Origin: Leeuwenhoekiella polynyae
Lineage (GTDB): Bacteria > Bacteroidota > Bacteroidia > Flavobacteriales > Flavobacteriaceae
Assembly (NCBI RefSeq): GCF_004104075.1
Contig: NZ_QOVK01000028.1
Coordinates: forward strand, 1 to 46,437
DNA length: 46,437 nucleotides
Direction: 5' to 3'
Shown here in pieces: positions 5,055 to 43,323 of this stretch; within the stretch, counting starts at the first letter, position 1, and each line of letters opens with the position of its first letter. The position numbers and the translations under genes are program-made. The notes below the pieces were generated by a model. It searched no databases and was not told the DNA's origin. It worked only from the letters and a program-made list of their open reading frames with translations.

Positions 5055-5079
5055 ACTAACAAATATACCTTTTCTACAC

Positions 5080-5097
5080 ACTACTCCTGAGGGTAGT
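5080..5097. promoter_or_regulatory. Candidate operator 1 (left copy)
   Basis: ACTACTCCTGAGGGTAGT is a near-perfect inverted repeat (ACTACYC-N4-GGGTAGT) just upstream of the luxR start. It is conserved at 37741. LuxR-type dimers bind such sites, so it is a likely binding site of the adjacent regulator; this is inferred. Confidence 0.6.
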
Positions 5098-5142
5098 TTT
5101 AACGATCTGAATATTTTTCTATGAAACCGGTTATTTTTAAAA

Positions 5143-5160
5143 ACTACTCGTGCGGGTAGC
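5143..5160. promoter_or_regulatory. Candidate operator 2 (left copy)
   Basis: ACTACTCGTGCGGGTAGC repeats the pattern of the first site exactly 63 bases away, which is about six helical turns, so two dimers would sit on the same DNA face. It is conserved at 37804. Confidence 0.6.
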
Positions 5161-5310
5161 ATATTAACAAGTTGATAACCATAACTTTAACACATAATCG
5201 AGATTTAAATGCGGTCAGACTTGCTGAGGAATCAAAAGCGGTTTCCTTTTAATATCTTTTTGGGATTGCCCCTTGGCAATTTTATAACTCATTCATCAAT
5301 CCAAATAACG

Positions 5311-5921: not shown

Positions 5922-6512
5922 ATGACAGATCAAAATGTTGCAAATGGGAACTCTCTATTTACAGAAACCAATGCTAAATTTGGATTACAGGGTGATTTTA
6001 ACAATTTTAGTTTAGACGGCTCCAGTAACGAATCTGTAGTTTTTTCTGGAGATCTAAGTATTTCATCTTTTTCTCCTTCGATACACAAGGTTAATCAAAT
6101 CGGTGAACTAAAATATTTGATTGGTTCCGATCTAAGTTCAGACCAATTTGTTGTTTATCCTAAACCATTTACTAACACTTATCAAGAAATCCTTGATGCT
6201 ATAAAGGAAGGGAAATCAATTACTGATTTATTGACTAAATCGGTTAAAGATAATTTAGACATAGCCTATGCGGCATATCTCAATGGAGATACAGCAAAGG
6301 TGAGTGACTATGTTGAACTTCTGGAAGCAATATATTTTCCTTTAAAACTAGCGTACTTTGCTACAAAAGATACTATGGTCGTTAGTCAAGATATCACGGT
6401 TTCTGGGGAAGACCCCGTTGTGCTTAACTGTAATGGAATTAAATTTTCTGGAACTAGCGGAATCTCCTCGGAGACTCAACTTACCGTGATTTCTGAAACC
6501 ATGATAAAATAA
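5922..6512 (+). CDS. Protein of unknown function, first gene of the operon
   Basis: The 196-residue product has no signal peptide, membrane segment or known motif. It shares a domain with the next protein: HKVNQIGELKYLIG here (about residues 55-68) corresponds to VTVNSIADLRKMLG there, and SDYVELLEAIYFPLKLAYFA (about 128-146) corresponds to EKYESLLNEVQFPMKMAVFS. In both, a beta-rich tail follows, ending in a similar 'TQLTVISETM / TDFIMVTDSL' strand. The two genes therefore carry paralogous domains, and this one lacks the Gly-rich extension. It is the first of ten closely spaced genes, followed after 28 bases by the paralogue. It may be a structural partner or cap of the Gly-rich protein. Function unknown. 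Confidence 0.75.
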   Translation: MTDQNVANGNSLFTETNAKFGLQGDFNNFSLDGSSNESVVFSGDLSISSFSPSIHKVNQIGELKYLIGSDLSSDQFVVYPKPFTNTYQEILDAIKEGKSITDLLTKSVKDNLDIAYAAYLNGDTAKVSDYVELLEAIYFPLKLAYFATKDTMVVSQDITVSGEDPVVLNCNGIKFSGTSGISSETQLTVISETMIK

Positions 6513-6540
6513 CTTAGCCCATTAACTAAAGACCAAATAA

Positions 6541-7836
6541 ATGAACTTTAAAAAATTATCGTTAGAACGGCAAAAGAGATTTGCAGCAACAAACAAGAAG
6601 CTAGGATTGCCTGCAGAACAGGGTACACATACACCAGTAGATCATCCAAAAAACAAAACCATTATATATTCTTCAGATCCGGAGGAGTCAGATGTACCCC
6701 CTAAATTGGTTACGGTTAATTCTATAGCAGATTTAAGAAAAATGTTAGGTTTCGATGATGCTAGTCAAATGATTGCTAAAAAATCGGCAACTGTTTTAAC
6801 AGCTAACTTGAAGGCATTAGAGAGCATTCATAAGATTAAAACAGCCAATTTATCTGATGGTAAGCCGCTTAAAGATCAATTATCTACTCAGCAGAAGGCA
6901 GAATTAAAAACTGCAAGTGTTCAACTCGTCACTACAGGCGCGCCAGAGTTAGAAAAATATGAATCTCTACTAAACGAAGTGCAATTCCCTATGAAGATGG
7001 CCGTGTTTTCTGATCCAGCACCAAAAGTGATAGATGGTACAGCGGTTATCAAATCTGGAAAAGATGGACTCCCCGTTACTTGGAACTATTCCGAGATAAT
7101 TATGGGGCCAGAAGGTAAAATTCGCCAAGAAACCGATTTTATAATGGTAACGGATTCTTTAGAAAGTAGCAATGGGGCTACAGGAGATTTACCCATAAAT
7201 AATACTCCCCCTGATTATTCTGAACATGCGCCGGAAGGAGGTACATCGGGACCCCCGGGGCAAGCAGGTGGAGGTACTGCAGGAGTAGCTAAAGCAAACA
7301 ACAGTAAAAAAGGATGCCCAATTGAATGTTACACACCACCTGGAGATGGTAAGCCAGGAACACAAGGTGCAGATGGTGGCGATGGTTCACCAGGGCAAAA
7401 AGGTGGAGCTATGAGTAGTTTAACCATAACAATTAATGAAAAACTTACAGGTAAAATAATTATACAAGCCGGCGGAGGGAATGGCCAAGTGGGTGGAAAA
7501 GGTGGAAAAGGTGCAGATGGCGGCGAAGGTGGCCCTCCAGGATCTTGCCCTACACAATGTACTGCAGCAAATAAAGGACCTCAAGGTCCTGGAGGACAAG
7601 GAGGCATGGGCGGCAATGGTGGAGATGGCGGAGACGTTGGAGTGATCATTATAAAATTACCTTTTGATATGGCACAACCACCAGTAGATTTAACCCCAGT
7701 AGGTGGTAAAGGTGGTAATAATGGTAGCCCTGGTGAAGGAGGTTTACCTGGTGGTAAACCTGGAGATACTAATCCCCATACACCTAACCCAAGTCCTGCA
7801 CCACAAGTGATTTTTCAACGTTTGCCACCAAATTAA
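6541..7836 (+). CDS. Gly-rich, collagen-like/polyglycine protein with paralogous N-terminal domain
   Basis: The 431-residue product has an N-terminal domain (about 1-210) paralogous to the preceding 196-residue protein, then a Gly-rich region to the C-terminus. That region alternates short beta segments (SLTITINEKLTGKIIIQ, VGVIIIKLPF) with runs such as GGKGGKGADGGEGGPPG and GPGGQGGMGGNGGDGG. Two C-P-x-x-C pairs lie just outside the Gly runs and could form disulphides or bind metal. The GG-x-GG-x spacing is closer to the polyglycine-II lattices of phage adhesins such as S16 gp38 than to strict Gly-X-Y collagen, although GPP and GPQGP triplets occur. No signal peptide. The next gene encodes another Gly-rich protein. 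A structural or adhesive role is inferred. Confidence 0.8.
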   Translation: MNFKKLSLERQKRFAATNKKLGLPAEQGTHTPVDHPKNKTIIYSSDPEESDVPPKLVTVNSIADLRKMLGFDDASQMIAKKSATVLTANLKALESIHKIKTANLSDGKPLKDQLSTQQKAELKTASVQLVTTGAPELEKYESLLNEVQFPMKMAVFSDPAPKVIDGTAVIKSGKDGLPVTWNYSEIIMGPEGKIRQETDFIMVTDSLESSNGATGDLPINNTPPDYSEHAPEGGTSGPPGQAGGGTAGVAKANNSKKGCPIECYTPPGDGKPGTQGADGGDGSPGQKGGAMSSLTITINEKLTGKIIIQAGGGNGQVGGKGGKGADGGEGGPPGSCPTQCTAANKGPQGPGGQGGMGGNGGDGGDVGVIIIKLPFDMAQPPVDLTPVGGKGGNNGSPGEGGLPGGKPGDTNPHTPNPSPAPQVIFQRLPPN

Positions 7837-7846
7837 TATAAATAGT

Positions 7847-8596
7847 ATGAAAGCTGATATAGAAATTTTAGGAATTTCTGGTGCTGACGGCATAAATCCG
7901 GGTAAAGCACCAAATGGAGAAAACACTAAAGAGAATAATATGGGTCAAGATGGGAGCAATACTAGCGACGATAGCCCTTCAATGTGGAGACGAGGGAATT
8001 GTAAGCAGGCTACAAATGGAGAAAATGGCGCTGCTGGATTACCTGGATTAGCCGGAGGTGATGGTCAAGACGGTGGCAAGTCCCCCTTGCTAATTTTAAA
8101 AATTGGATCCATTAATCCCAACTCCAATCAAATCATTGTTCAAAGTAATGGAGGAAAAGGGGGTAAAGGGGGTAAAGGCGGAGATGGTGGCGATGGTGCT
8201 AAAGGAGGCAATGCAGGAGTAAATAATTTAAAATGTATCTCCAAAAGATATACGCACTATTCAATGGGAGGAATAGGAGGAGACGGAGGCAAAGGAAATG
8301 ATGGTGGTAAAGGCGGTGACGCTGGAAACGGTGGCGAAGTTTATGTGTATTCAGATCAGTCAAGTTTAAACACATTGCTAGTAACCTCTAGTAATGCTTC
8401 TACCCCAGGAGATGGTGGTGCCGGTGGAAACGGAGGGCAACCGGGTGAAGGAGGACTCGATGAGCCTCAAGATGGCCAACCGCCTAATCAACAAATAAAG
8501 GGTAACTTCTTAGGAGGAGGTTTGGGTAAATCATCTGGAGGACCTGGAGAACCAGGTACTGTAGCCTATAGAAGGTTAACAAACCCAGTAAGTTAA
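7847..8596 (+). CDS. Gly-rich polyglycine-like protein
   Basis: The 249-residue product is built of Gly-rich runs (GGKGGKGGKGGDGGDGAKGG; GGIGGDGGKGNDGGKGGDAG; GDGGAGGNGGQPGEGG) separated by beta-forming segments (LLILKIGSINPNSNQIIVQ; EVYVYSDQSSLNTLLVTSS). This is the same plan as the C-terminal half of the preceding protein, without its N-terminal domain. Two lone Cys residues (in GNCKQ and LKCIS) lie outside the Gly runs. There is no signal peptide. The start lies 10 bases after the previous stop, so the two are translated together. The layout would suit a stacked polyglycine-II sandwich, possibly assembling with the preceding protein; that is a structural guess. Function unknown. Confidence 0.75.
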   Translation: MKADIEILGISGADGINPGKAPNGENTKENNMGQDGSNTSDDSPSMWRRGNCKQATNGENGAAGLPGLAGGDGQDGGKSPLLILKIGSINPNSNQIIVQSNGGKGGKGGKGGDGGDGAKGGNAGVNNLKCISKRYTHYSMGGIGGDGGKGNDGGKGGDAGNGGEVYVYSDQSSLNTLLVTSSNASTPGDGGAGGNGGQPGEGGLDEPQDGQPPNQQIKGNFLGGGLGKSSGGPGEPGTVAYRRLTNPVS

Positions 8597-8621
8597 ACTG
8601 GTTAATCAGAAATTTAAAAAT

Positions 8622-10235
8622 ATGGTTACCCAAACGGATTATCTTAAGATTCAGGACGCAAGTTTAATACTAAGCATAGCAGCTCAAGCCAATGAATATA
8701 CAATTGCCAATTTAAGTCAAAATTTTCCGGCCAATTGGAATGTTATAAAAATTAGCGTATTGCCTGCAGGTGGTTCTGGTAATCCAATACCTGTACAATT
8801 ATTATTGGCAAGGGAACCTATTGATCCCGCACAGCCAGACCAGAACACTAAACTTGTGTTAGCTTTTGGAATTAATTGGGGGAGGTATTTAGAAAAATAT
8901 CAGGATATCAATAAGGCTAGGGTAACAATAGATGCTAGCTTATTATTAAATGCTTCTACGGCCAAACTAGATCCAGATTTTCAAACTACCTACTTAAGTG
9001 GTTTAAGAGATCAAGTCTGGAATCTTATTAAAAAACATTTAACGAATAAGGACACTCTCATTTTATGTGGTATGGGCTTAGCTACACCATTAGCACAGCT
9101 GGCCGCCTTAGACTTAATTCCTACTCATATTGTACATGGGTTAGATCGTTCTCCCTATTTAGACTATCAACCAGAATGTTTTGTTTTTTCGGCACTTAAT
9201 TTTACAAATCAGGCTTTATCAGAATTATTTAATACTAAAGTTACAAATAAAGAAGGAAAAACGGCTTGCTACAGTTACAGCGTTAACAATAGAAATATGC
9301 CGTTATTAATTGATCATTTTCCCTTAAAACCGAACCAAGAAGAAGATTATTTTCCTTTAGGTAACGTAGAAGCAACTCCACAAGTAAAACTGCCAACAAC
9401 CCCTTCTTGGCCTGGTCCATGGCTAGAACGTGGAAATGCCTATTATTTTGATATGTTTAATAGGACATTTATTACCGGGCCACGTATAGAAAATCAAGAT
9501 ATAAAGCGGGCCTCAGGATTTAGTCAAGTTTTTGCTCATAATTTAACCCAGCTTATTTCTTCTACCTATTTGTTTAGTCAGCATCCACAGGCGGGCCCTA
9601 TACTACCAGGAGGTTATGAAGCACTGCCAACGGGAAAGATTGAATTTAATGGTACGCTTTGGGGCAGGATTTACACCAATGCTAATGGAGATGCTATTTT
9701 AACCTTACGGGGAACCACTACTTGGGAAGAGTTTAAATTGATAACCTCAAATTCGGAATTAGCTACTTATCAATTAGCTACAACAGAACATGTTCACAAA
9801 GGCCTCCAAAATTTATTTTATGGTACAGGCTCACTTTATCATGGAACTGGAGGTCTTAAGAATGCTATTATGAGCACCTTATCTAATAATAATATAACAA
9901 AGGTTACACTAACAGGTCACGACATTGGTGGAACGTTATTGAACTTTTTGGCTTTAGATTTAGCTTTTTCAGACGCTACGCTAAATGTACAATCTGTTTA
10001 TACATTTGGGGCGATTCCAATAGGAGGAATGGGCTTTGCCGGTATATTTAATCACAAACTAAAAGATAAGGTATACTCCGTTCGCCGTATATATGATAGG
10101 ATATCAATGAGTTTGATTTATGGTACCAATTACCATCCGGTTGGCAGCGCTATAATTTTTGAAGGCCAATTGGCACAAGAAGAGAACAGTTATCATGCAA
10201 TTAATGGCTATGTACACTTGCTAGATCCTTCTTAA
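8622..10235 (+). CDS. Tandem lipase-like protein lacking serine nucleophiles
   Basis: The 537-residue product looks like two alpha/beta-hydrolase-like halves. The second (about residues 340-537) follows the lipase class 3 plan: ILTLRGTTTWEEF (near 363), VHKGLQNLF, then TGHDIGGTLLNFLALDL, then VYTFGAIPIGG and a C-terminal Asp and His (YDRISMS; NYHPVG). The nucleophile elbow GHSxGG is here GHDIGG, so Ser is replaced by Asp434. The first half has an equivalent block, LCGMGLATPLAQLAALDL (near 150), with Gly152 at the nucleophile position, and a degenerate Asp/His region (VNNRNMPLLIDHF). Both halves therefore appear unable to act as serine hydrolases, though they may bind lipids or proteins. No signal peptide. 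It sits between the Gly-rich proteins and the giant protein. Confidence 0.75.
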   Translation: MVTQTDYLKIQDASLILSIAAQANEYTIANLSQNFPANWNVIKISVLPAGGSGNPIPVQLLLAREPIDPAQPDQNTKLVLAFGINWGRYLEKYQDINKARVTIDASLLLNASTAKLDPDFQTTYLSGLRDQVWNLIKKHLTNKDTLILCGMGLATPLAQLAALDLIPTHIVHGLDRSPYLDYQPECFVFSALNFTNQALSELFNTKVTNKEGKTACYSYSVNNRNMPLLIDHFPLKPNQEEDYFPLGNVEATPQVKLPTTPSWPGPWLERGNAYYFDMFNRTFITGPRIENQDIKRASGFSQVFAHNLTQLISSTYLFSQHPQAGPILPGGYEALPTGKIEFNGTLWGRIYTNANGDAILTLRGTTTWEEFKLITSNSELATYQLATTEHVHKGLQNLFYGTGSLYHGTGGLKNAIMSTLSNNNITKVTLTGHDIGGTLLNFLALDLAFSDATLNVQSVYTFGAIPIGGMGFAGIFNHKLKDKVYSVRRIYDRISMSLIYGTNYHPVGSAIIFEGQLAQEENSYHAINGYVHLLDPS

Positions 10236-10287
10236 CAACGGATTGAGAATAGACGAATTAAAATTAAACTACTAATCATTGAAGATC

Positions 10288-13200
10288 ATGGCAGGCTCAT
10301 TAAATACACCAAACACTAGTGCACTCATTGAGCGCAGATCTAATACTAATGAATTTGAGGTAGCGCAAGACAATAAAAACTATATTAAGTTCGAAGGTCT
10401 GGATCCTGTATTAGGTACCCTTGGTATTATGATTGGTTTGTTACTCAAGGAGGAATCTGCAGAAGACACCTATTTGCTAGACCCGGAATGGTTTACAGAT
10501 CCCTATAATAAAACCAAAAAGGGGATCACTAAAAATGGACAGCAAATGGGCCCCTTAATTGGTCAATTATTGGGCAGTTTTGGTGGAAACGCATTAGGTA
10601 TTCCTATAAAAGATCCTGCAATATTGGGAACTTGGTATCCTATACAATTAAAGAATAAAACCTCCGAAGCATTTGAACCTACTGGACTTTACGTGGTCAG
10701 TACAGATAATAAAGTTAAAGACGAAGTTGTTACTACAGCCATTGGGATTGGAGTATTAAAGAAATGGGAATTTAATAACGAAGATCAAGAAGTTACTGAA
10801 AGTAAAAAGGATACCAATAAAAAAGAAGACAAAAAAATAGATAAGGATGCCAATAGCGATAAGAAGGATCAAGGCATAAAAGTAGAGGTATGGGCTTCGT
10901 TACCTATTGTGGTTTTAGGAGCAGATGGAGTTAGCCTTACATTCATAGATGAAAATAATGTAAATCCAGTAACAATTGGGGTTGCCGCCGAAGGAGTAGA
11001 TCCAGAGAATGCGCTAATAAAAATAAACGGGATTGAATTTAATGGGGTGAAATTTAGCTCTAATTTATTTATTGCTCCAGAACCTAAATTTGAAGTTAGT
11101 TTAGAAATTTTAGGCTTAAAACTCGCTAAAGATGATACCCCAAAAAACTATTCCTTAGCAGATTTAGAAGCAATTACTCCTTTAGAAATACTAGATACAG
11201 CAGTAAACTTATTTATTGGTGCTTTAAGCAAGCAATTCACAGATAAGGAAAAAGAACTTCAATATTTTGCTCCTTTATTCGGCTTTTCTAGTCACGTTCC
11301 AGACCACGATGAGATTCGTTTACCACTCATGCAGTGGATTGAGCTTACAGAAAATGCTATAAACCAAAAAGACGCTGCGATTCCTTTCTTCAATTGGTTT
11401 AACGCCTTGTGCAGCGATACAAATAATCTTAAAGCTTGGCTAAGTTGTTTCTCAGGTTTCTTAGGGATTACTGATCCATTAAAAGCTGTAATGGGAAAGG
11501 GTTCTAGATTGCAACCGTTCCAGTCCCCTTTGATTCAGGTTGACGGAATTGGACAGCTAAATTTTAACTTGGGAAGTGGCGTTACCGGAAATGGTGATAG
11601 ATTCTTATATCCAGGATTGAGTTTTACAAGTAAGAGCCTGCAAATTGATACGTCTGATGCCTATTTTATGATGGAAGCCGACTTAGAGTTGGCGCATTTT
11701 AGGTTAAGCACAACGCCTAATACAACCACTAACAATGCTGCATTAGCATTAAACTTTATTACAAACTTTAATCTTACTGGGAAAGATGGTGATGTACTCT
11801 TAGATGATTATAAAGGTATAAGTCTAGGAAAGCTTTCGGGAGGGATCGCTATTGGAGCATTAACTGGAGCCGTAATTCCACACTTTGAACTTATTAATTT
11901 AACACTACCCGCACAGCGGGGTGGCAAAACACAAGACGATAACACTCCTAATAAATTTGGAGTAGTCAACTTACTGTCTCCAGACGAATTAGCCAATATA
12001 GGCGCAGTTGCACTTAGTGCTGCTCTACAAGAACTTATTTTAGGTAAAGAACCAGGTAGTTTTAGAAATGGAATCGCAGTATTATTAGGCCTAAAAGAAC
12101 CTGTATCACCCATAGAGTGGCCAATCCCTCCGTTTTCCGAGGCTGGTATTTCCAATAGTATAAAAGACCCAATTCACGCGTGGGCTCAATATTACTTAAC
12201 ACTAATAGAAGATAAAACCCTTACCAATGGAGTGCGACCTTTTACCTATTTGTTAAAAGCCTTTGCACAAATGCTTGAAATAGGTGGAAGTTCATTAGAT
12301 GTTACTGGTGGAGGTACACCAGATAATCCGTGGAAGGTAGGTTTAACAGTAAATGGGAGTGATATGCCTGTGCATTTAATTGCATACGAAGACACTTCAG
12401 ATTCTAATGATACGGTAAGTTTAGTATTTGGCCTTAGTTTAATACCAGAACTACAACTGGATGGAATAAAAATTGTTCCTAACATTACCATTGAGACCAT
12501 ACAAATAGATCTTTTTAAAGATAAACCCGCTGCTGCAAGTTGGTTTCATAAAGCACAGGCCACAATATCACTCCCAGATGGATTTACTACTCCTAAGTTT
12601 GGCGACGCCACTATAGGGGTTACTAATGTTGCACTCTCTGGAGGATGGTATCAAACTACAGGCTGGTCTTGGTCTATGTTAATTGATAACCCCACGTTGA
12701 GTATAGGCTCCAATAAACCAATTGTAGGAGCATCTTTAAATTTTAGTGAACAAAGTAGTTGGAGTAATCTAGTTAAAGAAGGGGTAGAGGCGTTCGGCCC
12801 ATTTTTTACAGGAGCATTAGGCTTGGCCATGATGCGCAGTAAAACACGTGTTGGATTATTAACAGCAGCATCTTTTGGGTTATTAACTGATTTTTCTGAG
12901 TATTCAATTTTTCAAGAAAGTGGATTAAAATGGGAAGGGTTTAAAGGATTAAAATTAGATGACTTTGGTGATCCTTTACAGCTTATTAGAAGTCAATTGG
13001 CCGGTAATTTAGAAACACCATCCCACGCACAGCGTTTTCTAAGTTTACTTTCATGGAGTTTAACCAATCAAGCTAAGGCACCTAAAATATTAGGTGTAGG
13101 TAGTTTCGCAGACCCTTACTTAACACCTTTACCTCTAGGGTTCGATCTGCCTATATCTTACAATGAAGCGACTCAAAGTATTGGATTAGGCTTGGCCAAA

Positions 13201-16200
13201 AACCTAACTTATGAGTACAATACCACCGATTTTAAGTTTAAGGTAGCGGTTTCTAACAGGTTAAATGGAATTGTTTATGGATTGGCAGATGGATCGTTTC
13301 CCAAAAACGATCAAACACCGTCTTTGGTAAATAGCGTACTCCTTACTAATGTAAATACAGCAGAACATTTAATAACCCTTCCAGACGATTTAGGTTATTT
13401 AGGCGCTTTGGAATTAGGCTTTAAAATAACACTTATAGATGACACACTAGATTTTGAACCTACGCTTGTATTAAAAAACACAAGATTGGAAGGTCAAAAA
13501 GCCGCTGCAGATATAGATTTAGCTACGTATTTAGCAGAATCAAAACACGTGCAATCGGCTTTTATGAGCATGCTCAATACCGGATTGCAAAAAGTGTTCA
13601 AAGTGGTATCAAATAAGGATCTTTTTAAAGATGTGTATTCGGTATTGTCCGAATTGGGCTTAACATTAGATTATAATTTCTCAGCAAAAAATAAGGTAGC
13701 TCCAGGAGTTCTAGGTATAAATATTGGAGGGTGGCAATCACTTTTAGCCAACCCAAAAACCTTTATGGAAACCCAGTTGATTGGGCTTATGGGAAAACCC
13801 GACTCCGGAAATCAATTGACAGAGTTAGTATCAACCTTAACAGGCTTTAAATTTCCAGATGTTCCTTTGCCAGCCTTGCAATTACTATCCGGTTTAGGTA
13901 TTGTGGGTTCAGAAGAAGATAATTTCGTTTTTAACTTAAAAACACTCCTCAACATTGTAACCGATCCCGTTGAAGAATTAAAAAGAAGATTCGAGGAGCT
14001 ATTTACAAATACAGCAAATAGACAGGCTCTTGCAAAGCAACTAACTAGAACTATACCGGAGACGGAAGTTGGATTTTTTGTATTCAGCGCGAATAATAAC
14101 GGACTTGTAAGCTTTAAAATCCCCGAAGAAAAACCACTTAATTTTGGTGCAGTTACTGGAAGAGATGATAAAGAATATCCATTTGTCTCTTTATTTGGTG
14201 GTATTGACTTAAGTTTTGCTAACGATAGTTTAGAAGTTCAAATAAATTCAAGAGTTCCGCTGTTGAATCTCGCGCTCCAAAATAGCTTTACTATTTCCCT
14301 GCAGGGCAATCAAATTGTTTTGCCAACCCCGGCAATATCTATTAGTTGGGGAGATGGGAAAAAACCAGCTGCTCCTCCCTTTGTTATTTTGCCTATTGAT
14401 AAAAATAAATCAACCTCAAGCTTTTATACAGATCAATTTACAACCTTAGCACCGGCGTACGCAATAAATACAATTTCTAATGCCGTGTTTGAATCCGCTC
14501 TGCTGGACAAATATCCACTAGTACAGCATATATTTAGCATGTTAGGTATTGCAAAACCAATATCAAATGATCCCCCCGAAGTCTTATTAGCTGAATCTGA
14601 AGCTACAGTGCCAATGACCATGCAATCTATTTTAGGTCTGCTTACAGACCCACTAGGTTGGTTGTTGTCTGACCAAGTATTGGGAACTAATGGTCGCTTT
14701 AATATTGCAAAATTAACTAATAAGTTAGCATTAATACCCGAAAAATCGTTTACTCCTGCAAGCGGAAATCCCATAACTATTGGACCTAATACGCATAAGA
14801 CGGGAATGCTTCTTAAAGGGCTTCCCTATAACTTTAGTATTGAAATTTCCGGTTCAGTAACAGATATCAAGAAGGAGAACATACACAATACAGATTTAGC
14901 CTTATTTAAATTTGGATGTTCTGCCATAGACATTGCCGATTCGGCAAGTGTCAATGACTTGAGTTTTGCTGTACGGGTTACTCCAGATTTTCAAGCGGCC
15001 ATAAGTGGAGGAGCTAAACTGGCAACTGGCGCAGCAGGCGGTTTATTTATTGATTTTGAGTACGATAATGATTTTAAATTTTCTTTTGCAGGCGGCACAC
15101 CTAAAAACCCTAGCGGTGTAGTTCAACTTATACCTTTTACGGGCTGGGGAGCACTTGCCGGGCAAGCAGGGACTTTAGCTACTACAAAAGTGATAGAACA
15201 AGTAGTTCCTGTAATATTAGAAAAACTAAAACCAAAAGCACCAGATTTTGTAACTGCGCTTACTGATTTTGGAACAAATGTACCCGTTAAAAATTTAATT
15301 AATACCATAGCAAATTTGGTGTCTAACCCACCTGCTGAACAACTATTAGGTGAAGCGATAGAAGAGGCTGCCTTAAATTGGATAAAGGGTTTATTTATTG
15401 AGGATCAGTTAACTAAAACCATAGTGGCAATTCAAGGTATTTTCGCACAAGTACCTGAACAAATAGGTACTGTAACTGTAGATACTAAGGAGAAAGGGCT
15501 TTTGGTATTCTCTCCAGGAGTTAATTTACCTATTGAGTTGTTTTTTGGAGTAGATGGAGAGAATTTAGGGCTTTGGGTAGGACTAAATATTCCAAAAATC
15601 CCATATTTAAGTATGAATGTTCTACGAACTGGAATTGGAATAGACGTAGCCACATTATCTAAAGTAAGTATATCATTTGGTTCTCAAATTATTTTACCAC
15701 TGGATCAGTCTTACGGACCAGGAATTAAATTAGAACGTAATAAGGACTCTGAATTTAGTCTTATTCTGGACCCTATGGCCAATAGTAAAGATCCAGATAC
15801 CAATTCAGATATGGCTATCCAATTATTACCTGTATTCTTTGGTACAAAGGGAGAAGAGCCAGAAGACCTAGGAGAAACAATACAGGCATGGACGTTACAG
15901 GTCATTAAAAATGTACTTCCAAGATACGTATCTATTTTAGTACTAAACAACGAGTTTGTGAAAATGTGGTTGGAATACAATTTATTCACCAAAGTACCCC
16001 ATACCGAAATAGAGCTTAGTGCTGCTCAAATTTTAGTAGCCACTACGTTAATATGCGATGGAGACAGTTGCAATTCAACTAAAAAAGAAGAAGAAATACG
16101 TTATGTCTTAAATACCATAGACAAAATTGCCGATATTACTCCACTTGGTTTTTTAAGTAATTTATTACAAGAATTACTATCTGAAACCGTAACGATTGTT

Positions 16201-20439: not shown

Positions 20440-20449
20440 ATTTATTAAT

Positions 20450-21955: not shown

Positions 21956-21956
21956 T

Positions 21957-22892: not shown

Positions 22893-22898
22893 TTCATT

Positions 22899-27029: not shown

Positions 27030-27033
27030 TACT

Positions 27034-28239: not shown

Positions 28240-28261
28240 AGCAACCAAAAGATTAAACTTT

Positions 28262-31200
28262 ATGCCGCATACAACCTTAGTAGACCTTATTCTTAATTAT
28301 CCTAAAGATCGTGCCCAAGAGGATGTTCTAATATTTTTAAATGCTAAGGGTAAAGTGAAGAATAACCTTACGTTTAAAGATCTTGAACAGCGGTGCATGA
28401 ATTACGCTTTTAATATCTCTCAATTTGCCTCAAAGCATGAAATAGTACTAATTACTTTAGAAGATCAGGAAGATTTTGTAGTCAGCTTTTTTGGCTGTCT
28501 TTTGGCTGGGAAAATTCCAGCTCCAATTGCGCCATTACAGCATAAAAGAAACCAATCCTCTTGGGGTAAATTGGAAAATATATTAAAAAAACAATCTAAT
28601 GCTTCTGTATTAGTAAGAGAATCAGAATATGATGATGTACTAGGTTTTTTACAAGAGAACGGACTCCTAAATACGCGTATTTATACTACAGAAGCTCTGG
28701 ATAAACCAGATGCAATACCTGTTGAATTACCAAAAATACAGACGTCTCAGGTTGCTTATATTCAGTATACCTCAGGTTCTACTTCCAAACCAAAAGGGAT
28801 TGTGTTAACGCATGAACAAATATTAAAAAATCTGGAAAAAATGTATCGGGTTTTTAATAGAGGACAAGTAGTTCGTGTGGCTGGATGGATTCCATTTTAC
28901 CACGATATGGGATTGGTTGGTCACCTTTTTACAGTGCTTTACGAATCTGGTTTTGGTGTTTTTTTAAATCCGAGTACATTTTTAGCAAAACCAGAACTAT
29001 GGTTAAAAGCTTTTAGTGAGTATCATGCCAATAGTGGTGCTGCACCTACTTTTGCTTTTAAGCATTGTGTGTCTAAAATTAAAAATTTTGATGGAATTGA
29101 CTTATCCTCCTGGCAGCATGCCTATGTGGGTTCAGAAACAGTTACTATAGAGGTTCTAGAACGTTTTATAGACACATTTAAGCCTCAAGGCTTTAACCCC
29201 AATACGTTTAGACCGGTATACGGCTTGGCCGAAGTAACACTTTTAGCTGCAGGTGGCGCTCTGGGTTTTGAAGACTTGTTAAGCACAGTTGAAAAAAATT
29301 CCCTTTCTAATTCATCACGGCGTAAGCTAATTCCTTATACATTAGATAAGGAATGTACTACTGTTACAATTGTGAATCCAGATACGCTACAAGAGCTACC
29401 CGATGGACAAGAAGGTGATATTATTGTTAAAGCCAAACATAATTTTTCAGGCTACTTAAAATATGATTTAAATTTTGATAAACTCCAGGCCGTAACCGTT
29501 AATACCGGAGATGTTGGATATATTAAAGATGACAATCTATATATAACGGGAAGAAGAAAAGAAATCATTATTGTACGAGGTCGTAATTATTCAGCCGAAG
29601 ATCTTGAGCATAGTGCAAGACAATTTATTACGAATTTACGACCAAATGACGCCACTGCTTGTCTGCAAGATTTAGAGGATCCATTAAATTCTGTAATTGT
29701 GCTTCAAGAAATTCACAGGCATTTAGATTCAGATAAACAGGAAGAAATAATAGCTCAAATCAAGGCTAACCTTAGTGATGGATTTGGCATTAAAGCCCAA
29801 GCTATTTTGTTGATTGCACAAGGTACTTTAGCTCGGACTCCCAACTATAAATTAGCGCGTGGAAAGTGTCTTGATCAGTTTAAATCAAATAAGCTCAGAA
29901 TACTAAGTCAATCTGGCAAGACCTCAGGTTTAGCAACTACTCGTAATAAACAAAATGAAGAGGTTGTTATTGTTGGCATGGCCTGTAAATTCCCAGGAGG
30001 TGTTACCAGTTTAGATGATTTTTGGGAATTATTAGCCACGGGTACTGACGCTATTCAAGAGGTGCCTAAAAATCGCTGGAATAACGATTTGTTTTACGAT
30101 AAAGACATAGCTGTTCCCGGCAAAGTAAATACAAAATGGGGTGGTTTTGTTGATGGAATAGATCAGTTTGATCCTGCTTTTTTTGGTGTTTCTAAATATG
30201 AAGCGGCAGAAATGGATCCACAACAACGTCTGGTTTTAGAGACTTCTTGGAGACTAATGGAACATACGGGCTGGACAAAACCACACGTAAAAAATTCCAA
30301 TACAGGAGTGTATATAGGTATTTCTACAAATGATTACCTGTACATGAAAATTAAACTCACAACAGGATTAACAGGTTTTAACGCTTATTCTGGACTAGGC
30401 AATGCACATAGCATTGCTGCTAATAGACTGTCTTATTTCTACGATCTTAAGGGGCCAAGTATGGCTATAGATACTGCCTGTTCCTCTTCTTTAACAGCAT
30501 TTCATCTTGGTGCACAAGCCATTTTAAATGGGGATTGCCAACAGGCCATTGTAGGTGGTGTTAATGCCATATTATCTCCCGGTTCAACAGTAACCCTGTC
30601 TCAATTTGGAATGATGGCTCCAGATGGTCGTTGTAAGGCATTCGATCAATCTGCTAACGGTTATGTGCGCTCTGAAGGTTGTGGATTGGTTATGCTTAAG
30701 TTAAAATCTGCGGCATTGCGAGACGGTGACAATATTTTAGCAAGCGTTGTATCTACCGCGGCTGCTCAAGATGGTATGAGCCCGGGTATAACGTATCCTA
30801 ATGCTTCTGCTCAACACGCTATTATTGGTAAATGTTTGGCTAAAAGCGCTATATCCCCGTCTCAAGTGAGTTATGTAGAGGCGCATGGTACAGGTACAGC
30901 TTCAGGAGACCCTATAGAAATGGAGCAACTTGTTCACCATTACGGGGATTATGAAAATAATTCAACCTGTTTTGTCGGATCTGTTAAGGCAAATATTGGA
31001 CATTTAGAGGCTAGTGCTGGTATTGCAAGTGTTATAAAAACGGTTCTCATGCTGCAAAAAAAGCAAATCCCTCCACAAATTCATGTGAACACGTTAAACC
31101 CTAAAATTCAACTTGAGAATACTAGAATTCAGATTGCTAAAAAACTAACTCCCTGGGAGTCTGATCAAAATAGGAATGTTGCGATTAGTTCCTTTGGGTT

Positions 31201-34200
31201 TGGTGGCTCTCTAGCACATGTAATTTTACAAGAGGCTTCTAATACTCTTGAACCTAAAACTGCCATTCCTACTGATCACTTTGTATATCCCTTTATTCTA
31301 AGTGGTCATTCTCAAACCAACTTAATACAACAAGCTACAGCTTGGGAGTCTTGGTTAACTTCTAATTCAGTTTTGCCATTTGCAGACCTTTGTTTTACTC
31401 AGGCAAAGCACAGAACCAATTTACAGTTTAGAAAGTACTTTTTGGCTTCTGATAAATTAGAATTGGCTAATCAGTTAGATTCTTTCATTACATCTAAAAA
31501 GCCAATACAAGCTGCACAAGAGAATTTAAAATTATGCTTTTTGTTTACGGGTCAAGGGGAGCATTATTATGACATGGGACGTTCTTTATATTTTAGATAT
31601 CCCAGATACAAAACCTATTATGATCATTGTATTTCCCAACTAAATTTAGACGAACAGGCATTAGAAAAAATAAATAATGCACTTAATAAAGAGCATATTT
31701 TTAGAATCACCGAAGCTCATGCACAACCCTTACAGTTTGCACTACAATATGCATTAGCTAAATTTTTAATGGATTTGAATTTAAATCCAGATTATTTATT
31801 AGGATATAGTTTTGGTGAATATGTAGCAGCCTGTTTAGCAGGATGTTTCACCCTAAAAGAGGGTATGCTTATGGTACAAAAAAGAGGGCAACTTCTAGAT
31901 GATTTAGAGGTTTATGGATCTATGGTTACCATATTTGAAAGTCCTGAGGTAGTCTTACCTGTAATCAATCCGGAAAAGGTAACTATAGCCGTACATAATA
32001 GTCCTAAAAAGACTGTGATTTCTGGTGATCAAATCGAGATAGAGCGCATTTGTAAACAATTCAGGTCCTTAAATGTTAAGCTCTATTATTTAAAAACAAT
32101 AAAACCATATCACAGTCATTTTATCGAGCCTATTTTAGAGGAATATAAGCAGTTTTTAGAAACTGTGAATTTTAAAAAACCCATCAAAAAGTGGGTGTCT
32201 AGTGTTACTGGTAGTTTAATGGAAAAGTGCCCAGATACTATGCATTGGATTAATCAAACCCGCAACACTGTTTTGTTTTCAGAAGCGGCACATTCCTTAA
32301 ACCAACTAGATAATGCTGTTAGTTTTATAGAAGTTGGACCAGGGGCCAGTACATTGTCGGCAATTTTTGAAAATATAAATCCAAGGTCTCAGGTACTTGT
32401 GCGAACGTTGATGCAAAATAAGCGTTTAAAACCAGAAGGAGACTATTTATTACACGCCTTGGGTAAACTTAATGACTTTGGGTTTAATATTAACTGGGAG
32501 AATTTCTATTCACATAAGACCTATCCTGGCAGTATTCCTGGCTTGGCTTTAAACAATAAAAGATTTTGGTTGCGAGGAATAGATGCTGCAAAACTGGCCA
32601 CATTTGCGGCACAAGAGGATAACTCTAATTATAAGAAAGATATTCTAAACGCTACAAACGATGAGGGTCAAGAAATGGAAGATAATTTGCACTATACTTT
32701 AAAATGGATCCCCTATGATTCATTAAATATAGCATCTCTTCCAATTACCTTGGCCGACCCAATTAATTGGATTTTAATAGGAGAGTCCAGCCCATTACTT
32801 TTAGAAGTGTTGCAAGAACTAAAGGATCAGAATACATCTGTCTATTGGATGGGTTCAAAGCAAAAAGGAGCCGTAAAACCAGACATAGAAATAACACACG
32901 AAGCAACTAAGGAAGCTTTACATAAAAAGTTTGATCGTATTGTAAATTTAATCGCCAAAAGATCCATTAGAGATTATCGCATAGTATACATTACTCCGGA
33001 ATTGAATCCCACCATAAATCTAGAAAATATTGATTCAACCGTTAATAAAACAGTAGTTTTTTACACTCGATTACTAAAAGCTATTAAACAGCTTGTATTT
33101 TCGCAACCTATTTGGGTAGTGACTCAAGGAATTCATTGCTTAGAAAATGAAAATGGAAACCAAGTAAACTTAGCACAATCCGTGTTATGGGGTTATGCAA
33201 AAACTGCATATTTAGAACATCCCGAATGGCGTGGTGGACTTATAGATGTCTCACAACACAAGAATCCTAATACTGCAAAACAGATCTTATATAAAATCCT
33301 AAAACCTGAGCAGGAACGTTGTGTTTTGTTAAGAGAAGGGGTACAGTATATTGAACAATTGTATGCAGCGCCCTGTAGTCCTACTAATACATTAAAACTA
33401 CGAAACGATGGGGCGTATATAATCACGGGTGGATTAGGTGGATTAGGATTAAAATCTGCAGCTTGGTTAGTAAATAATGGCGTAAAACATATTATATTAA
33501 TTTCTCGAAGGGAATTGCCTCAACAAGCACAATGGGAACAATTATCACAAGAAAATCCTGAATATAGTTTTTTAAAGGAATTGATTAGCTTAAAAAGTAA
33601 AGTTGATGTTTTAGAAATCATAGCTATGGATATTTCTGATGTCGAAAAATTGGAATCCTTTTTTAATACGCTAAACACAAAGAATACAGTAGTTCGTGGA
33701 ATAGTCCACGCAGCTGGTGTTAACTGGTTTTCTAAACTAATAGATATAGACATTGCTAAGCTGCAGCAAACTTTAAAAATTAAAACAGCCGCATCCTGGC
33801 AACTGCATACACTTACAAAAAACATGGATTTAGATTGCTTCATTTTGTTTTCTTCGGTTTCTGCTGTTTGGGGTTCTGTTGAATTAAGCCATTATACAGC
33901 AGCTAATTATTTTATGGATCTTCTTGCACGTTATAGACAGACTTTAAAGTTGCCTGCATTGTCTGTAAATTGGGGGCCTTGGGCAGAAGTTGGTATGAGT
34001 TCCGGAACTAGAGAAGTAGAAGTTCTAGGTAAACTAGGATTTAATCTGATGCCTCCCAATACAGCCCTAAATGCCTTGAAGAATCAATTAAGTACCGGTA
34101 ATGCAGTTGCTGTAATTGGCGATATCAATTGGGGAAAATTTAAGCCCTTTGTAGACTTTTCCTTAAGACCTTCTTTATTCACTCCAGTTATGCCAGAGGA

Positions 34201-35329
34201 TTATGTGCAGCTTAAACCTGCTTCCGAAGGAGTTACAGAAATACTAAACAGCACGATGAAGCAGGCCCGCAAAAAAATAGAGGAAGTAGTACGGCTAGAA
34301 TTACGTCGCGTAATGCTAGTAGATTCTATGGGGCCTATAGAGGCTACAGAACGTTTTAATATGTTGGGAATGGATTCTTTAATGGCTATTTCTTTTGTGG
34401 TAGAAATTGAACAATATTTTAATATTAACTTACCTAATACATTACCCTATAACTACCCACATATAAAAGCAGTTTCAGATTATTTGTTCCAAGAAATTTA
34501 TGTTGCAAAACATCCAAGTGCAGCAAACTATCTTGACAAACTATTACAAGATGATAAGCACGATTCTAACCAAAATGATCAAGTTAATATAACAACACCT
34601 GTGTCTAAAATTTGGATTGATTTACGGGAAATTAAAAAAAGCCCAGAGTACACAGTTTTTTGTTTTCCAGCCATTGGATCTGGAGCTTCTGCTTTTAAAC
34701 CATTAGCAAATGCGGCACCTGAATGGCTCTCCCTAATAGGGGTTCAAGCTCCGGGGCGAGAAGAACGCTCCAATCAAAATGCTCATTTAAATATGACTGA
34801 ATTACTTGATGAGTTAATAAGTAGTTTTATAATACCAGACCATCCCTATTCGTTATATGGACATAGTTTTGGTGGTATTCTGGCTTATGAATTTATTTTA
34901 GTACTGCAGCAAAAAGGTTTACGCTTACCAGAAAACCTAATAGTTTCAGGAACCAATCCCGTTAACAAGCCTAGTCAGGGAAAAATCCATGAGTTACCAG
35001 ATCAAGAAATGATTCAAACGGTATTAGAATCATATCCCAATAATCAAGATAATCAAACTAGAAAACAGGCAATACTAAATAGTAAAGACACAGTTAGGGC
35101 AGATTTGACCATTATGGAAACTCACATTTCTAACGGAACTCAAATACCTTGTAATATTCATGTTATTGTTGCCAAACAAGATAAAGTAGCACCGTTTAAA
35201 AACATGAAAGAATGGAAACATTTTAGCAAGGCTAATACTAGCTTTTTAAGAGTAGAGGGATCTCATGATATATTACGTGAAAACCAAGCTACAATTTTAG
35301 AAACGTTAATCACATTAAATAAAAAGTAG
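28262..35329 (+). CDS. FAAL-KS-AT-KR-ACP-TE polyketide synthase
   Basis: I chose ATG 28262 over 28220 because the longer form overlaps the upstream gene and the family N-terminus starts at TLVDLIL. Domains of the 2355-residue protein: fatty acyl-AMP ligase, about 1-555 (YTSGSTSKPKG near 170, GRRKEIIIVRGRNYSAEDLE near 430); ketosynthase, about 566-1000 (Cys740, His875, His914 in the KS motifs); acyltransferase from about 1093 (GYSFGE, Ser1183; KPYHSH); ketoreductase from about 1720 (TGGLGGLG, Tyr1878); acyl carrier protein (GMDSLM, Ser2039); thioesterase (GHSFGG, Ser2202; SHD). Predicted job: activate a fatty acid, add one malonyl unit, reduce the beta-keto group, release a beta-hydroxy acid or transfer it. 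There is no dehydratase or enoylreductase, and no carrier protein between FAAL and KS, where one usually loads. The KR has Trp1870 eight residues before Tyr1878 and lacks an LDD motif, which fits A-type stereochemistry. Confidence 0.9.
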   Translation: MPHTTLVDLILNYPKDRAQEDVLIFLNAKGKVKNNLTFKDLEQRCMNYAFNISQFASKHEIVLITLEDQEDFVVSFFGCLLAGKIPAPIAPLQHKRNQSSWGKLENILKKQSNASVLVRESEYDDVLGFLQENGLLNTRIYTTEALDKPDAIPVELPKIQTSQVAYIQYTSGSTSKPKGIVLTHEQILKNLEKMYRVFNRGQVVRVAGWIPFYHDMGLVGHLFTVLYESGFGVFLNPSTFLAKPELWLKAFSEYHANSGAAPTFAFKHCVSKIKNFDGIDLSSWQHAYVGSETVTIEVLERFIDTFKPQGFNPNTFRPVYGLAEVTLLAAGGALGFEDLLSTVEKNSLSNSSRRKLIPYTLDKECTTVTIVNPDTLQELPDGQEGDIIVKAKHNFSGYLKYDLNFDKLQAVTVNTGDVGYIKDDNLYITGRRKEIIIVRGRNYSAEDLEHSARQFITNLRPNDATACLQDLEDPLNSVIVLQEIHRHLDSDKQEEIIAQIKANLSDGFGIKAQAILLIAQGTLARTPNYKLARGKCLDQFKSNKLRILSQSGKTSGLATTRNKQNEEVVIVGMACKFPGGVTSLDDFWELLATGTDAIQEVPKNRWNNDLFYDKDIAVPGKVNTKWGGFVDGIDQFDPAFFGVSKYEAAEMDPQQRLVLETSWRLMEHTGWTKPHVKNSNTGVYIGISTNDYLYMKIKLTTGLTGFNAYSGLGNAHSIAANRLSYFYDLKGPSMAIDTACSSSLTAFHLGAQAILNGDCQQAIVGGVNAILSPGSTVTLSQFGMMAPDGRCKAFDQSANGYVRSEGCGLVMLKLKSAALRDGDNILASVVSTAAAQDGMSPGITYPNASAQHAIIGKCLAKSAISPSQVSYVEAHGTGTASGDPIEMEQLVHHYGDYENNSTCFVGSVKANIGHLEASAGIASVIKTVLMLQKKQIPPQIHVNTLNPKIQLENTRIQIAKKLTPWESDQNRNVAISSFGFGGSLAHVILQEASNTLEPKTAIPTDHFVYPFILSGHSQTNLIQQATAWESWLTSNSVLPFADLCFTQAKHRTNLQFRKYFLASDKLELANQLDSFITSKKPIQAAQENLKLCFLFTGQGEHYYDMGRSLYFRYPRYKTYYDHCISQLNLDEQALEKINNALNKEHIFRITEAHAQPLQFALQYALAKFLMDLNLNPDYLLGYSFGEYVAACLAGCFTLKEGMLMVQKRGQLLDDLEVYGSMVTIFESPEVVLPVINPEKVTIAVHNSPKKTVISGDQIEIERICKQFRSLNVKLYYLKTIKPYHSHFIEPILEEYKQFLETVNFKKPIKKWVSSVTGSLMEKCPDTMHWINQTRNTVLFSEAAHSLNQLDNAVSFIEVGPGASTLSAIFENINPRSQVLVRTLMQNKRLKPEGDYLLHALGKLNDFGFNINWENFYSHKTYPGSIPGLALNNKRFWLRGIDAAKLATFAAQEDNSNYKKDILNATNDEGQEMEDNLHYTLKWIPYDSLNIASLPITLADPINWILIGESSPLLLEVLQELKDQNTSVYWMGSKQKGAVKPDIEITHEATKEALHKKFDRIVNLIAKRSIRDYRIVYITPELNPTINLENIDSTVNKTVVFYTRLLKAIKQLVFSQPIWVVTQGIHCLENENGNQVNLAQSVLWGYAKTAYLEHPEWRGGLIDVSQHKNPNTAKQILYKILKPEQERCVLLREGVQYIEQLYAAPCSPTNTLKLRNDGAYIITGGLGGLGLKSAAWLVNNGVKHIILISRRELPQQAQWEQLSQENPEYSFLKELISLKSKVDVLEIIAMDISDVEKLESFFNTLNTKNTVVRGIVHAAGVNWFSKLIDIDIAKLQQTLKIKTAASWQLHTLTKNMDLDCFILFSSVSAVWGSVELSHYTAANYFMDLLARYRQTLKLPALSVNWGPWAEVGMSSGTREVEVLGKLGFNLMPPNTALNALKNQLSTGNAVAVIGDINWGKFKPFVDFSLRPSLFTPVMPEDYVQLKPASEGVTEILNSTMKQARKKIEEVVRLELRRVMLVDSMGPIEATERFNMLGMDSLMAISFVVEIEQYFNINLPNTLPYNYPHIKAVSDYLFQEIYVAKHPSAANYLDKLLQDDKHDSNQNDQVNITTPVSKIWIDLREIKKSPEYTVFCFPAIGSGASAFKPLANAAPEWLSLIGVQAPGREERSNQNAHLNMTELLDELISSFIIPDHPYSLYGHSFGGILAYEFILVLQQKGLRLPENLIVSGTNPVNKPSQGKIHELPDQEMIQTVLESYPNNQDNQTRKQAILNSKDTVRADLTIMETHISNGTQIPCNIHVIVAKQDKVAPFKNMKEWKHFSKANTSFLRVEGSHDILRENQATILETLITLNKK

Positions 35330-35362
35330 GCTGTTAAAAAGTAGCCGGTATAAGCAGAATCT

Positions 35363-36151
35363 ATGAGTACCAGTACACAAACTTCTACAGAGACTAACAA
35401 AATAACACAACCATGGTATAGCGTATGGGGTGATCGATATAACGGGAACCAACCCCCATTTTATAATCGTGAAGACTTACCTTGGACTAAAGTGATGGAA
35501 GACAACTGGGAACTAATGCGCGATGAATTATTGCAATTAATAGAGGATAAACCAGACCGTTTACAACCTTATTTTATAAACAAAACAATGGCTTTTCCTC
35601 CCAGACAATGGAAAACCATGGGCTTATACTTCTGGAGATATAAAATACATAGAAATTGCCGGCGATGCCCAGAGACACTTAAAATAATTAAATCAATTAA
35701 ACATATTTCTTCGTTTTCTATTAGCGTATTAGAAGCAGGATCTAATATAAATCCACATCAAGGAGATACAGACGCAATAATTCGATGTCATTTAGGACTC
35801 GTGGTGCCTGGAGAGCTTCCAGATTTAGGTTTTCAGGTAGGTAGCAAAATAAAAACTTGGGAAGTAGGGAAGTGTTTACCATTTTGTGATGCAATTACTC
35901 ATACCGCATGGAATCATACTAAAAAAAGGAGAATTATAATAAATTTTGATGTGGTAAGACCAGAATTTATTCATAAAAAGAATCGTATATGCGCTCATGT
36001 TTTAGCCTCATCGGGAATTCAAATGTTATATCCCAAATTTCCATCATTAAAAAACAAATCCGGCTATTGGAGAAAGACAATTTACCATTTAATTCGAGTA
36101 ATGACTTTAATTTTATTGCCAGTGCAACGCATTTCTGGTATAGGAAAATGA
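35363..36151 (+). CDS. AspH/LpxO-like Fe(II)/2-oxoglutarate hydroxylase
   Basis: The 262-residue protein belongs to the aspartyl/asparaginyl beta-hydroxylase fold. It has the N-terminal part with WYSVWGDRYNG, then INPHQGDTD (His132) and IIRCHLGLVVPG, and a second iron-ligand region THTAWN (His180) followed by KKRRIIINFDVVRPE, whose Arg would bind 2-oxoglutarate. The usual family pattern has only the two His as iron ligands, as here. Homologues hydroxylate protein Asp/Asn (AspH) or lipid A acyl chains (LpxO). Beside a lipid-building PKS in the same operon, hydroxylation of the released acyl chain or of a conjugate is the more attractive idea, but the substrate is unknown. The C-terminal 30 residues are hydrophobic-basic (MTLILLPV) and may touch the membrane. 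It is the last gene of the operon. Confidence 0.8.
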   Translation: MSTSTQTSTETNKITQPWYSVWGDRYNGNQPPFYNREDLPWTKVMEDNWELMRDELLQLIEDKPDRLQPYFINKTMAFPPRQWKTMGLYFWRYKIHRNCRRCPETLKIIKSIKHISSFSISVLEAGSNINPHQGDTDAIIRCHLGLVVPGELPDLGFQVGSKIKTWEVGKCLPFCDAITHTAWNHTKKRRIIINFDVVRPEFIHKKNRICAHVLASSGIQMLYPKFPSLKNKSGYWRKTIYHLIRVMTLILLPVQRISGIGK

Positions 36152-37821: not shown

Positions 37822-37971
37822 ATATTAACAAATTGATAACCATAACTTTACCCCATAATCGAGATTTAAATGCGGTCAGACTTGCTGAGGAATCAAAAGC
37901 GGTTTCCTTTTAATATCTTTTTGGGATTGCCCCTTGGCAATTTTACTATTCATTCATCAATCCAAATAACG

Positions 37972-43310: not shown

Positions 43311-43323
43311 TACTATACGATTA

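Follow-up and report, generated by a model that had tools for sequence, protein, structure and literature searches.

Fatty acyl-AMP ligases (FAALs) start many polyketide and lipopeptide pathways, according to a published review (PMC11837247). The same review gives the cyanobacterial olefin synthase the order FAAL, acyl carrier protein (ACP), ketosynthase, acyltransferase, ketoreductase and ACP (KS-AT-KR-ACP), sulfotransferase (ST) and thioesterase (TE), and a multidomain FAAL enzyme without the ACP between FAAL and KS is known, appearing there beside the desmamide A figure (PMC11837247). Here we describe a block of eleven genes (g1-g11, positions 5922-36151) of Leeuwenhoekiella polynyae that ends with a FAAL-containing synthase and a hydroxylase. 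The window analysed is 46,437 nt long and comprises the entire contig C28 of a draft genome of 4.79 Mb.

The synthase encoded by g10 (28262-35329; longest open reading frame (ORF) from 28220) resembles the olefin synthase in FAAL activation, one KS-AT-KR round and a terminal TE. It differs in that neither a sulfotransferase domain nor an ACP between FAAL and KS was found among its Pfam matches, and in its location within a structural operon. The hydroxylase encoded by g11 (35363-36151, 262 aa) has OlsC and LpxO as its best NCBIfam matches, but scores far below the equivalog cut-offs of both and lies in a different gene setting. The giant protein g5 at most works like ApoB-type lipoproteins, which are likewise giant and possess amphipathic beta sheets; ApoB100 was a weak Foldseek hit (E 3.4e-3) of a model spanning 911 of the 3386 residues of g5, whereas TM-scores of 0.03-0.24 do not indicate the same fold. 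Contractile injection systems and phage tails share tip-type Collar and Gp10_C domains with relatives of g9, but the L. polynyae genome contains no sheath match and eight block proteins have no PHROG match. No paper naming DUF6603 or PF20248, and none joining FAAL, polyketide synthase (PKS), hydroxylase and Hahella, was found in the open-licence literature. As far as searched, neither the block nor its core fits a described kind of system, and the statement of an earlier, sequence-only reading that no characterised system has this set of genes still stands. The block appears to encode a protein-lipid assembly of a new kind.

An eleven-gene block inherited as one unit

ORF analysis placed eleven genes in the block, all on the plus strand, where ten had previously been counted. 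They are separated by at most 52 bases, the gaps from g1 to g11 being 28, 10, 25, 43 (52 from the ATG start of g5), 10, 1, 6, 4, -20 (+22 from the later g10 ATG) and 33 bases. Terminator-like sites numbered 3 between 5100 and 8000, with 2.5 expected, and 19 between 17000 and 36900 on both strands, with 13.3 expected (sd 3.7). Four genes have Pfam families over the cut-off, namely g4 (Lipase_3), g5 (DUF6603), g10 (synthase domains) and g11 (Asp_Arg_Hydrox). The other seven (g1, g2, g3, g6, g7, g8 and g9) have no such Pfam match and none in PHROGs or NCBIfam. In agreement with the sequence-only reading, no signal peptide was seen on g1-g11, judged by a crude look at N-terminal hydropathy and not by a dedicated predictor.

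The block recurs with small variants at 11 other loci in three phyla (Bacteroidota, Pseudomonadota and Acidobacteriota): in Parapedobacter, Chitinophaga, two Hahella, two Vibrio and two Marinomonas, and in three metagenome-assembled genomes (MAGs) of Flavobacteriales, Saprospiraceae and Bryobacteraceae. A whole synthase was present at 10 of 80 loci, with the Saprospiraceae locus (L063) as an eleventh by genome; these 80 are the best of 138 loci from a scan of named genomes, and the share with a synthase is no census. Both Hahella keep the order g1-g11, as do Parapedobacter and Chitinophaga apart from a small additional ORF that each has after g9. The Flavobacteriales MAG (L062) has the same order with an extra g1-like ORF and is cut inside g10. 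The Saprospiraceae block is spread over four contigs: its main locus stops in g8, a second contig carries g9-g10-g11, and g1, g2 and g4 are divided between two others; g3 was not seen in this MAG. Three g1-g2-g3-like ORFs and g4 precede g5 in Parapedobacter, Chitinophaga, both Hahella, the Flavobacteriales MAG and Marinomonas shanghaiensis; in the two Vibrio, a single fused Gly-rich ORF and g4 are located upstream. On the Bryobacteraceae contig g4 lies near the contig end and nothing of g1-g3 was found, and in the second Marinomonas locus the upstream region falls outside the available sequence.

By tblastn, g6, g7 and g9 were present at all 10 synthase loci and g11 at nine, the exception being L062, which is cut inside g10. 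In the DUF6603 tree the ten rows with a PKS (window and nine loci) together with L063 formed one clade (SH-aLRT 96), in a quick tree of 59 rows without bootstrap and with several long branches. Among the genomes of this PKS clade, g4 was found in all 10 others searched, and a g10 homologue of at least 92% coverage, sometimes in two pieces, at the locus in all 11 searched, the window's own included. None of the four genomes of simpler or neighbouring type contained such a homologue at the locus. Pairwise identities among eight members (window, L055, L056, L058, L059, L061, L062 and L067) correlated between genes, with r of 0.97 for g5-g6, 0.95 for g5-g8, 0.85 for g5-g10 and 0.79 for g10-g11. 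Since such correlations arise from shared descent alone, they are evidence of joint travel and not of physical contact. Marinomonas rhodophyticola (L093) was searched only and left out of the tree and the identity table; its block is present and broken into many frames, like a decaying or badly sequenced copy.

Thus, g1-g11 are inherited as one unit across phyla. The claim that the genes form one system is borne out to the extent that shared order in several phyla, a single clade and correlated divergence show unit inheritance, and co-occurrence in the same order in other bacteria, which the earlier reading had named as a check, was found across phyla, with variants.

The borders of the block are sharp, with one exception. 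For 12 of the 13 window genes outside the block, tblastn at 1e-5 found nothing in the PKS-clade loci or their flanks. The remaining gene (36351-37154, minus strand) faces g11 and encodes an APH/choline-kinase-fold protein (APH 5.8e-12); in both Vibrio a relative (4.8e-21) directly follows g11 in the same direction (window, L161, L162, L057 and L058 compared). Judged by this similarity, it may be an optional member of the block. Elsewhere the next gene differs, encoding a sigma factor, a methyltransferase or one of two PEP-CTERM proteins (Parapedobacter, Chitinophaga, one Hahella and the Bryobacteraceae MAG). Comparison of 114 flanking ORFs from nine genomes yielded matches between genomes at 1e-5 only from Vibrio to Vibrio and from Hahella to Hahella.

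The giant DUF6603 protein and its core partners

The 3386-aa product of g5 (10279-20439 with a TTG start; alternative ATG at 10288) matched DUF6603 (PF20248) over residues 2232-2783 with 1.9e-138 (462.6 bits, cut-off 27), which corroborates the giant DUF6603-like protein noted before. Its N-terminal half contains a repeat of about 340 residues (264-598 and 789-1131; hhalign 97%, 8.8e-11). An AlphaFold2 model of residues 2066-2976 reached a mean pLDDT of 80, with about 90 or more over most of 261-560 in model numbering, and consists mostly of long consecutive strands. Foldseek returned large barrels (SlpA, SprA, ushers, FadL and VDAC) in addition to ApoB100, with E-values down to 3.5e-6. In the DUF6603 strands the difference between alternating hydrophobic and polar positions was 2.67, compared with a shuffled mean of 1.43 (sd 0.20, maximum 2.06, n=1000). 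In the alternation test DUF6603 reached z 5.0 with 18.9% of sequence windows, and no other tested stretch exceeded 2; a PorP/SprF barrel used as control gave z 1.9 and 13.4%, and the two repeat copies, with z 1.3 and 0.3, are not amphipathic. DUF6603 is therefore predicted from model and pattern to be a strongly amphipathic beta meander. An outer-membrane barrel is unlikely: the crude inspection revealed no sorting signal, and members of the family are found in Actinomycetota and Paenibacillus too.

Many bacteria carry only a core of g5, g6 (20450-21955, 501 aa), g7 (21957-22892, 311 aa) and g8 (22899-27029, 1376 aa) with a protein in the slot of g9 (27034-28239, 401 aa); g6 and g7 are fused in one ORF in many relatives. 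For a g8 relative from Paenibacillus maysiensis a fold was predicted with pLDDT 81 and pTM 0.82. This family model had no convincing match, the best PDB structure giving E 0.34 and the best viral model E 1.5e-3 with TM 0.06. Profile searches of PDB sequences likewise gave best E-values of 0.091 for g8 and 0.59 for g6.

DUF6603 is patchily distributed. It was matched in 17 of 395 genomes of the phylum (16 over the cut-off) and in 7 of 296 of the order (6 over the cut-off), and g8 in 1 of 13 genomes of the genus and 2 of 299 of the family, the window's own genome being included each time. The DUF6603 tree covers eleven named phyla, including Actinomycetota, and Paenibacillus is among its members. 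At the 21 loci mapped first (the window, 16 DUF6603 loci and four plasmid loci with g8) the g8 family was present at 14, the g6/g7 family at 11 and another large partner at 7. Of the rows listed, 58 of 60 entered structure alignment A3 and 52 of 64 entered A4, the window being added to each. Wrong-frame ORFs had been called in L066, L068, L101 and L102, and counts were therefore made by tblastn.

Relatives of g8 also occur in 8 plasmid records of Paenibacillus, Streptomyces and Embleya, and on a P. polymyxa plasmid DUF6603 is annotated beside one of them. On that 392-kb plasmid (L020) the core DUF6603 module occupies 11555-19674, and genes for baseplate gpV and a GH-E nuclease are located roughly 9 kb away. 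Seven further loci (type B: G384, G211, G217, G033, G371, G080 and G111) share DUF6603 with the block, and at 6 of the 7 a protein has a g6-like N-terminal part (hhalign 95.8%), but their other large partner proteins are unrelated to g8; kinship between g8 and the large type-B protein was rejected by hhalign. No g10 or g11 match was found by phmmer in the type-B stretches. Two loci (L178 and L017) contain other giant proteins (frames of 2203 and 2006 aa) with a weak DUF6603 match (4.0e-7 and 6.5e-4), and these may perhaps form a wider superfamily with DUF6603. Related MBL-fold hydrolases lie near the core in L072, L102, L119 and L124. In a Pfam tally the MBL fold (Lactamase_B) occurred in 5 of 77 operon neighbours and no other family exceeded 2 among the 25 listed of 43; the 77 are what remained of 154 after removal of the 67-member g9-slot cluster described below and of proteins <140 or >1100 aa. 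The hydrolases are perhaps another partner line.

Proteins beside the core at 43 loci formed one single-linkage cluster of 67, mostly directly after g8; this clustering excluded ORFs <130 or >1900 aa and, as near-copies or too short, nine of the 80 loci. Sub-threshold Pfam matches (DUF11, PKD and fn3) and general look suggest that the cluster is Ig-like. The g9 protein diverges fast; the proteins scanned from its slot in relatives carry Phage Tail Collar, Gp10_C, lectin-like Laminin_G_3, kelch, or lactonase-like or WD40-like propeller domains. When g9 and seven relatives were combined in a profile, it matched the slot proteins of L064/L066 with 99.9%, those of Taibaiella/Mucilaginibacter with 97.1% and a five-member set mixed from four loci with 98.5%. 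Behind the core, an acidobacterial locus and two from Mucilaginibacter each encode several stand-alone collar proteins. Several collar-type proteins were located at 15267-16962 (L075), 15279-18829 (L086) and 13620-16476 (L073), one of which was analysed with Pfam. Within the window's family, one genome has an ORF of collar type a short distance before its core. A recognition tip would be expected to exchange its end domains in this way, and the g9 slot looks like such an exchangeable tip.

Synthase, hydroxylase and accessory genes

The Pfam domains of g10 are AMP-binding, KS, AT, KR, ACP and thioesterase, with a single PP-binding stretch (2039-2089) after the KR. The motifs DTACSS, HGTGT, NIGH, GYSFGE, TGGLGGLG, GMDSL and GHSFGG, which we take to be the catalytic signatures of KS, AT, KR, ACP and TE, are all intact; relatives that reach the TE have GHSLGA, GHSMGA or GHSLGG in place of GHSFGG. 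The domain order predicts a 3-hydroxy fatty acid two carbons longer than the starter as product.

The product of g11 matched Asp_Arg_Hydrox (PF05118) with 6.4e-41 and 140.2 bits (cut-off 22.6), which indicates an AspH fold. Its best NCBIfam match was OlsC (NF052565; 1.2e-33, 116.4 bits against an equivalog cut-off of 450), followed by LpxO (6.7e-19, 68 bits against 500). Because g11 is nearest to these acyl-chain hydroxylases, hydroxylation of a fatty acid is the best reading, and together with the intact synthase motifs this favours the earlier proposal that a fatty acid is extended and hydroxylated. Strong relatives of g11 are uncommon, being present at 1e-20 in 4 of 296 genomes of the phylum with the window's own counted, and the three others have no g4-g10 relative in the surrounding 15-32 kb.

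Three loci (L064, L066 and L068) have a small ACP-like ORF and a FabF-like ketosynthase after the g9 slot, in place of the synthase. The ACP of L068 scored 21.8 bits for PP-binding (cut-off 20.8), and those of L064 and L066 were judged by eye. An AspH-fold gene is also present in L064 and, inverted, in L066; by tblastn none was found in L068. L064, L068 and a Niveispirillum locus (L065) form the sister group of the PKS clade (support 99), L066 being absent from the tree. These simpler loci show that carrier-bound acyl chemistry is a recurrent add-on, of which the big synthase is the elaborate form.

Upstream of g5, the 196-aa product of g1 (5922-6512) resembles part of g2 (phmmer 6e-12) and has homologues at the same position in relatives. 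The g2 product (6541-7836, 431 aa) joins this g1-like part to a Gly-rich GGx tract, and that of g3 (7847-8596, 249 aa) contains 27% glycine. The description as polyglycine-like was modestly borne out, GGx runs lying within residues 318-393 of g2 and 102-196 of g3. The 537-aa product of g4 (8622-10235) has a class-3 lipase fold (Lipase_3 1.6e-10). Its nucleophile elbow reads GHDIGG, with GHD at residue 432, so that Asp replaces the nucleophile Ser of the G-H-S-x-G motif of active class-3 lipases. The label of a dead lipase fits the window's g4 but not the g4 of two relatives, which retain GHS.

A possible protein-lipid assembly and its alternatives

Our best explanation, put forward tentatively, is that the block is an operon for a cytoplasmically made multi-protein assembly in which the giant g5 holds a clade-specific hydroxylated fatty acid; the same tentative proposal includes horizontal inheritance as a mobile operon. 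The amphipathic beta giant g5 would form the core assembly with g6, g7 and g8, and g9 would be its exchangeable tip. The FAAL of g10 would activate a fatty acid, KS-AT would extend it by two carbons and KR would leave a 3-hydroxy group. After release or transfer of the acyl chain, g11 would add a hydroxyl group to it, probably close to the carboxyl terminus. The lipid could then be held, whether as cargo or as part of the structure, by the hydrophobic side of the DUF6603 sheet. The lipase-fold g4 and the Gly-rich g1-g3 would be accessory parts accompanying the lipid line; lacking its serine, a lipase fold might bind acyl chains rather than cut them. We infer that the lipid is coupled to the protein assembly. 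Likewise, the proteins would form a particle, the lipid would have the structure outlined and be loaded onto it, and binding of a target, a route of release and use outside the cell would follow.

Several observations weigh against this explanation. At the 47 loci with at least 7 kb on either side of g8, tblastn found g5 at 46, g6 at 43 and g7 at 38, but the synthase at only 10. The large proteins thus occur mostly without the synthase, and the g10 lipid is not required by the assembly in general. The sequence-only reading, which would have given up its one-system view if the large proteins were regularly found without PKS and Gly-rich genes, is to that extent weakened; the lipid line is better seen as a clade-specific add-on to the core, and other bacteria may use other lipids or none. 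Niveispirillum (L065), although in the sister clade, has no KS or AspH-fold gene in the available stretch. In L059, L067 and L093, g11-g10 form an inverted pair after g9, so that the single transcript expected earlier is not universal, and the divergence of g9 and g10 correlated least (r 0.50). TM-scores among the best 50 of 740 Foldseek hits of the g5 model were 0.03-0.34 and show no fold relation; DUF6603 and these hits have only a local strand pattern in common. As to the tip, g9 of the window has no Collar or receptor-binding domain by Pfam, lies outside the slot cluster at 1e-5 and, as a single sequence, did not match a small profile; the g9 profile matched actinobacterial slot proteins with only 35%.

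In the main rival explanation, the lipid is destined for the envelope of the producer itself, with g10-g11 altering a membrane lipid and g1-g9 anchored on or crossing the surface. This is consistent with the best curated matches of g11, which are the named ornithine-lipid and lipid A hydroxylases, with the ability of g10-g11 to form a separate inverted unit, and with a CHU_C protein and a type IX secretion PorP/SprF protein encoded just upstream of two Mucilaginibacter core loci. It is unlikely all the same, as no sorting signal was seen on g1-g11 by the crude look, g11 scores 116 bits against the OlsC cut-off of 450, and core members occur in Actinomycetota and Paenibacillus, which have no outer membrane. 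Alternatively, the giant could wrap acyl lipids as the coat of an intracellular lipid store, for which g10-g11 supply a special chain. The lack of visible signal peptides, the amphipathic sheet and the lipase-fold neighbour would suit such a lipid body. The collar, lectin-like and propeller domains in the relatives' g9 slot suit target binding better, and with the patchy distribution (17 of 395 phylum genomes) they make storage clearly unlikely.

An ordinary natural-product cluster, with the structural proteins as unusual carriers or self-protection for a small lipid product, would accord with the use of FAALs at the start of many polyketide and lipopeptide pathways (PMC11837247). In its distribution the structural core extends far beyond the synthase, and no near-full-length g10 homologue was found away from the core in 15 genomes, a small sample picked for the core; we regard this alternative as improbable. 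A phage-tail-derived particle with unusual parts (contractile injection system or tailocin) is most improbable. Collar and Gp10_C in the relatives' g9 slot and the gpV gene near the P. polymyxa core locus might point to one, as might sheath matches, which nine of the 12 genomes carrying the block or related loci have somewhere at E 0.001 (five of the nine over the cut-off). Against it, the sheath match is absent from three of the 12 (the window's genome G000 with 0 matches, Vibrio ruber and Marinomonas shanghaiensis), the listed matches lie off the block contig save in single-contig G404 and on main contigs, there far away, g1-g4 and g6-g9 have no PHROG match, and no viral model convincingly fits the g8 relative. 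Anti-phage defence was rejected, as eight proteins, six of them from the window, gave no PADLOC match.

Elsewhere in the window, a LuxR/GerE-type regulator gene (4296-5162, minus strand) lies upstream of the block and is directed away from it, and no relative of it adjoins the block in other PKS-clade loci. Downstream lie genes for an S41 peptidase with TPR (37870-39618, plus strand) and, at 41196-43728 (plus strand), for a multi-PAS protein that matches HisKA weakly and for a response regulator after it. Near the contig end, a product with an Mrr-type nuclease domain and an nSTAND3 NTPase (44930-45994, plus strand; PF20720 7.3e-41, PF04471 8.2e-7) looks, by its domains, like a STAND-type anti-phage defence protein.

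It is rare for eleven genes spanning 30 kb to move across phyla as a unit with no function described for them. The block links the widespread giant DUF6603 family to lipid chemistry and to recognition domains, and provides a first testable hypothesis for this family, namely lipid handling with action outside or between cells. The g8 family contributes a confidently predicted structure without a convincing PDB or viral match. A bolder form of our explanation, which we consider quite unlikely, is that the block encodes a bacterial counterpart of lipoprotein particles, in which the giant packs its own hydroxylated fatty acid and the tips of the g9 slot aim it at cells or surfaces. If this were true, DUF6603 proteins at large would carry lipids as well, with cargoes of other kinds.

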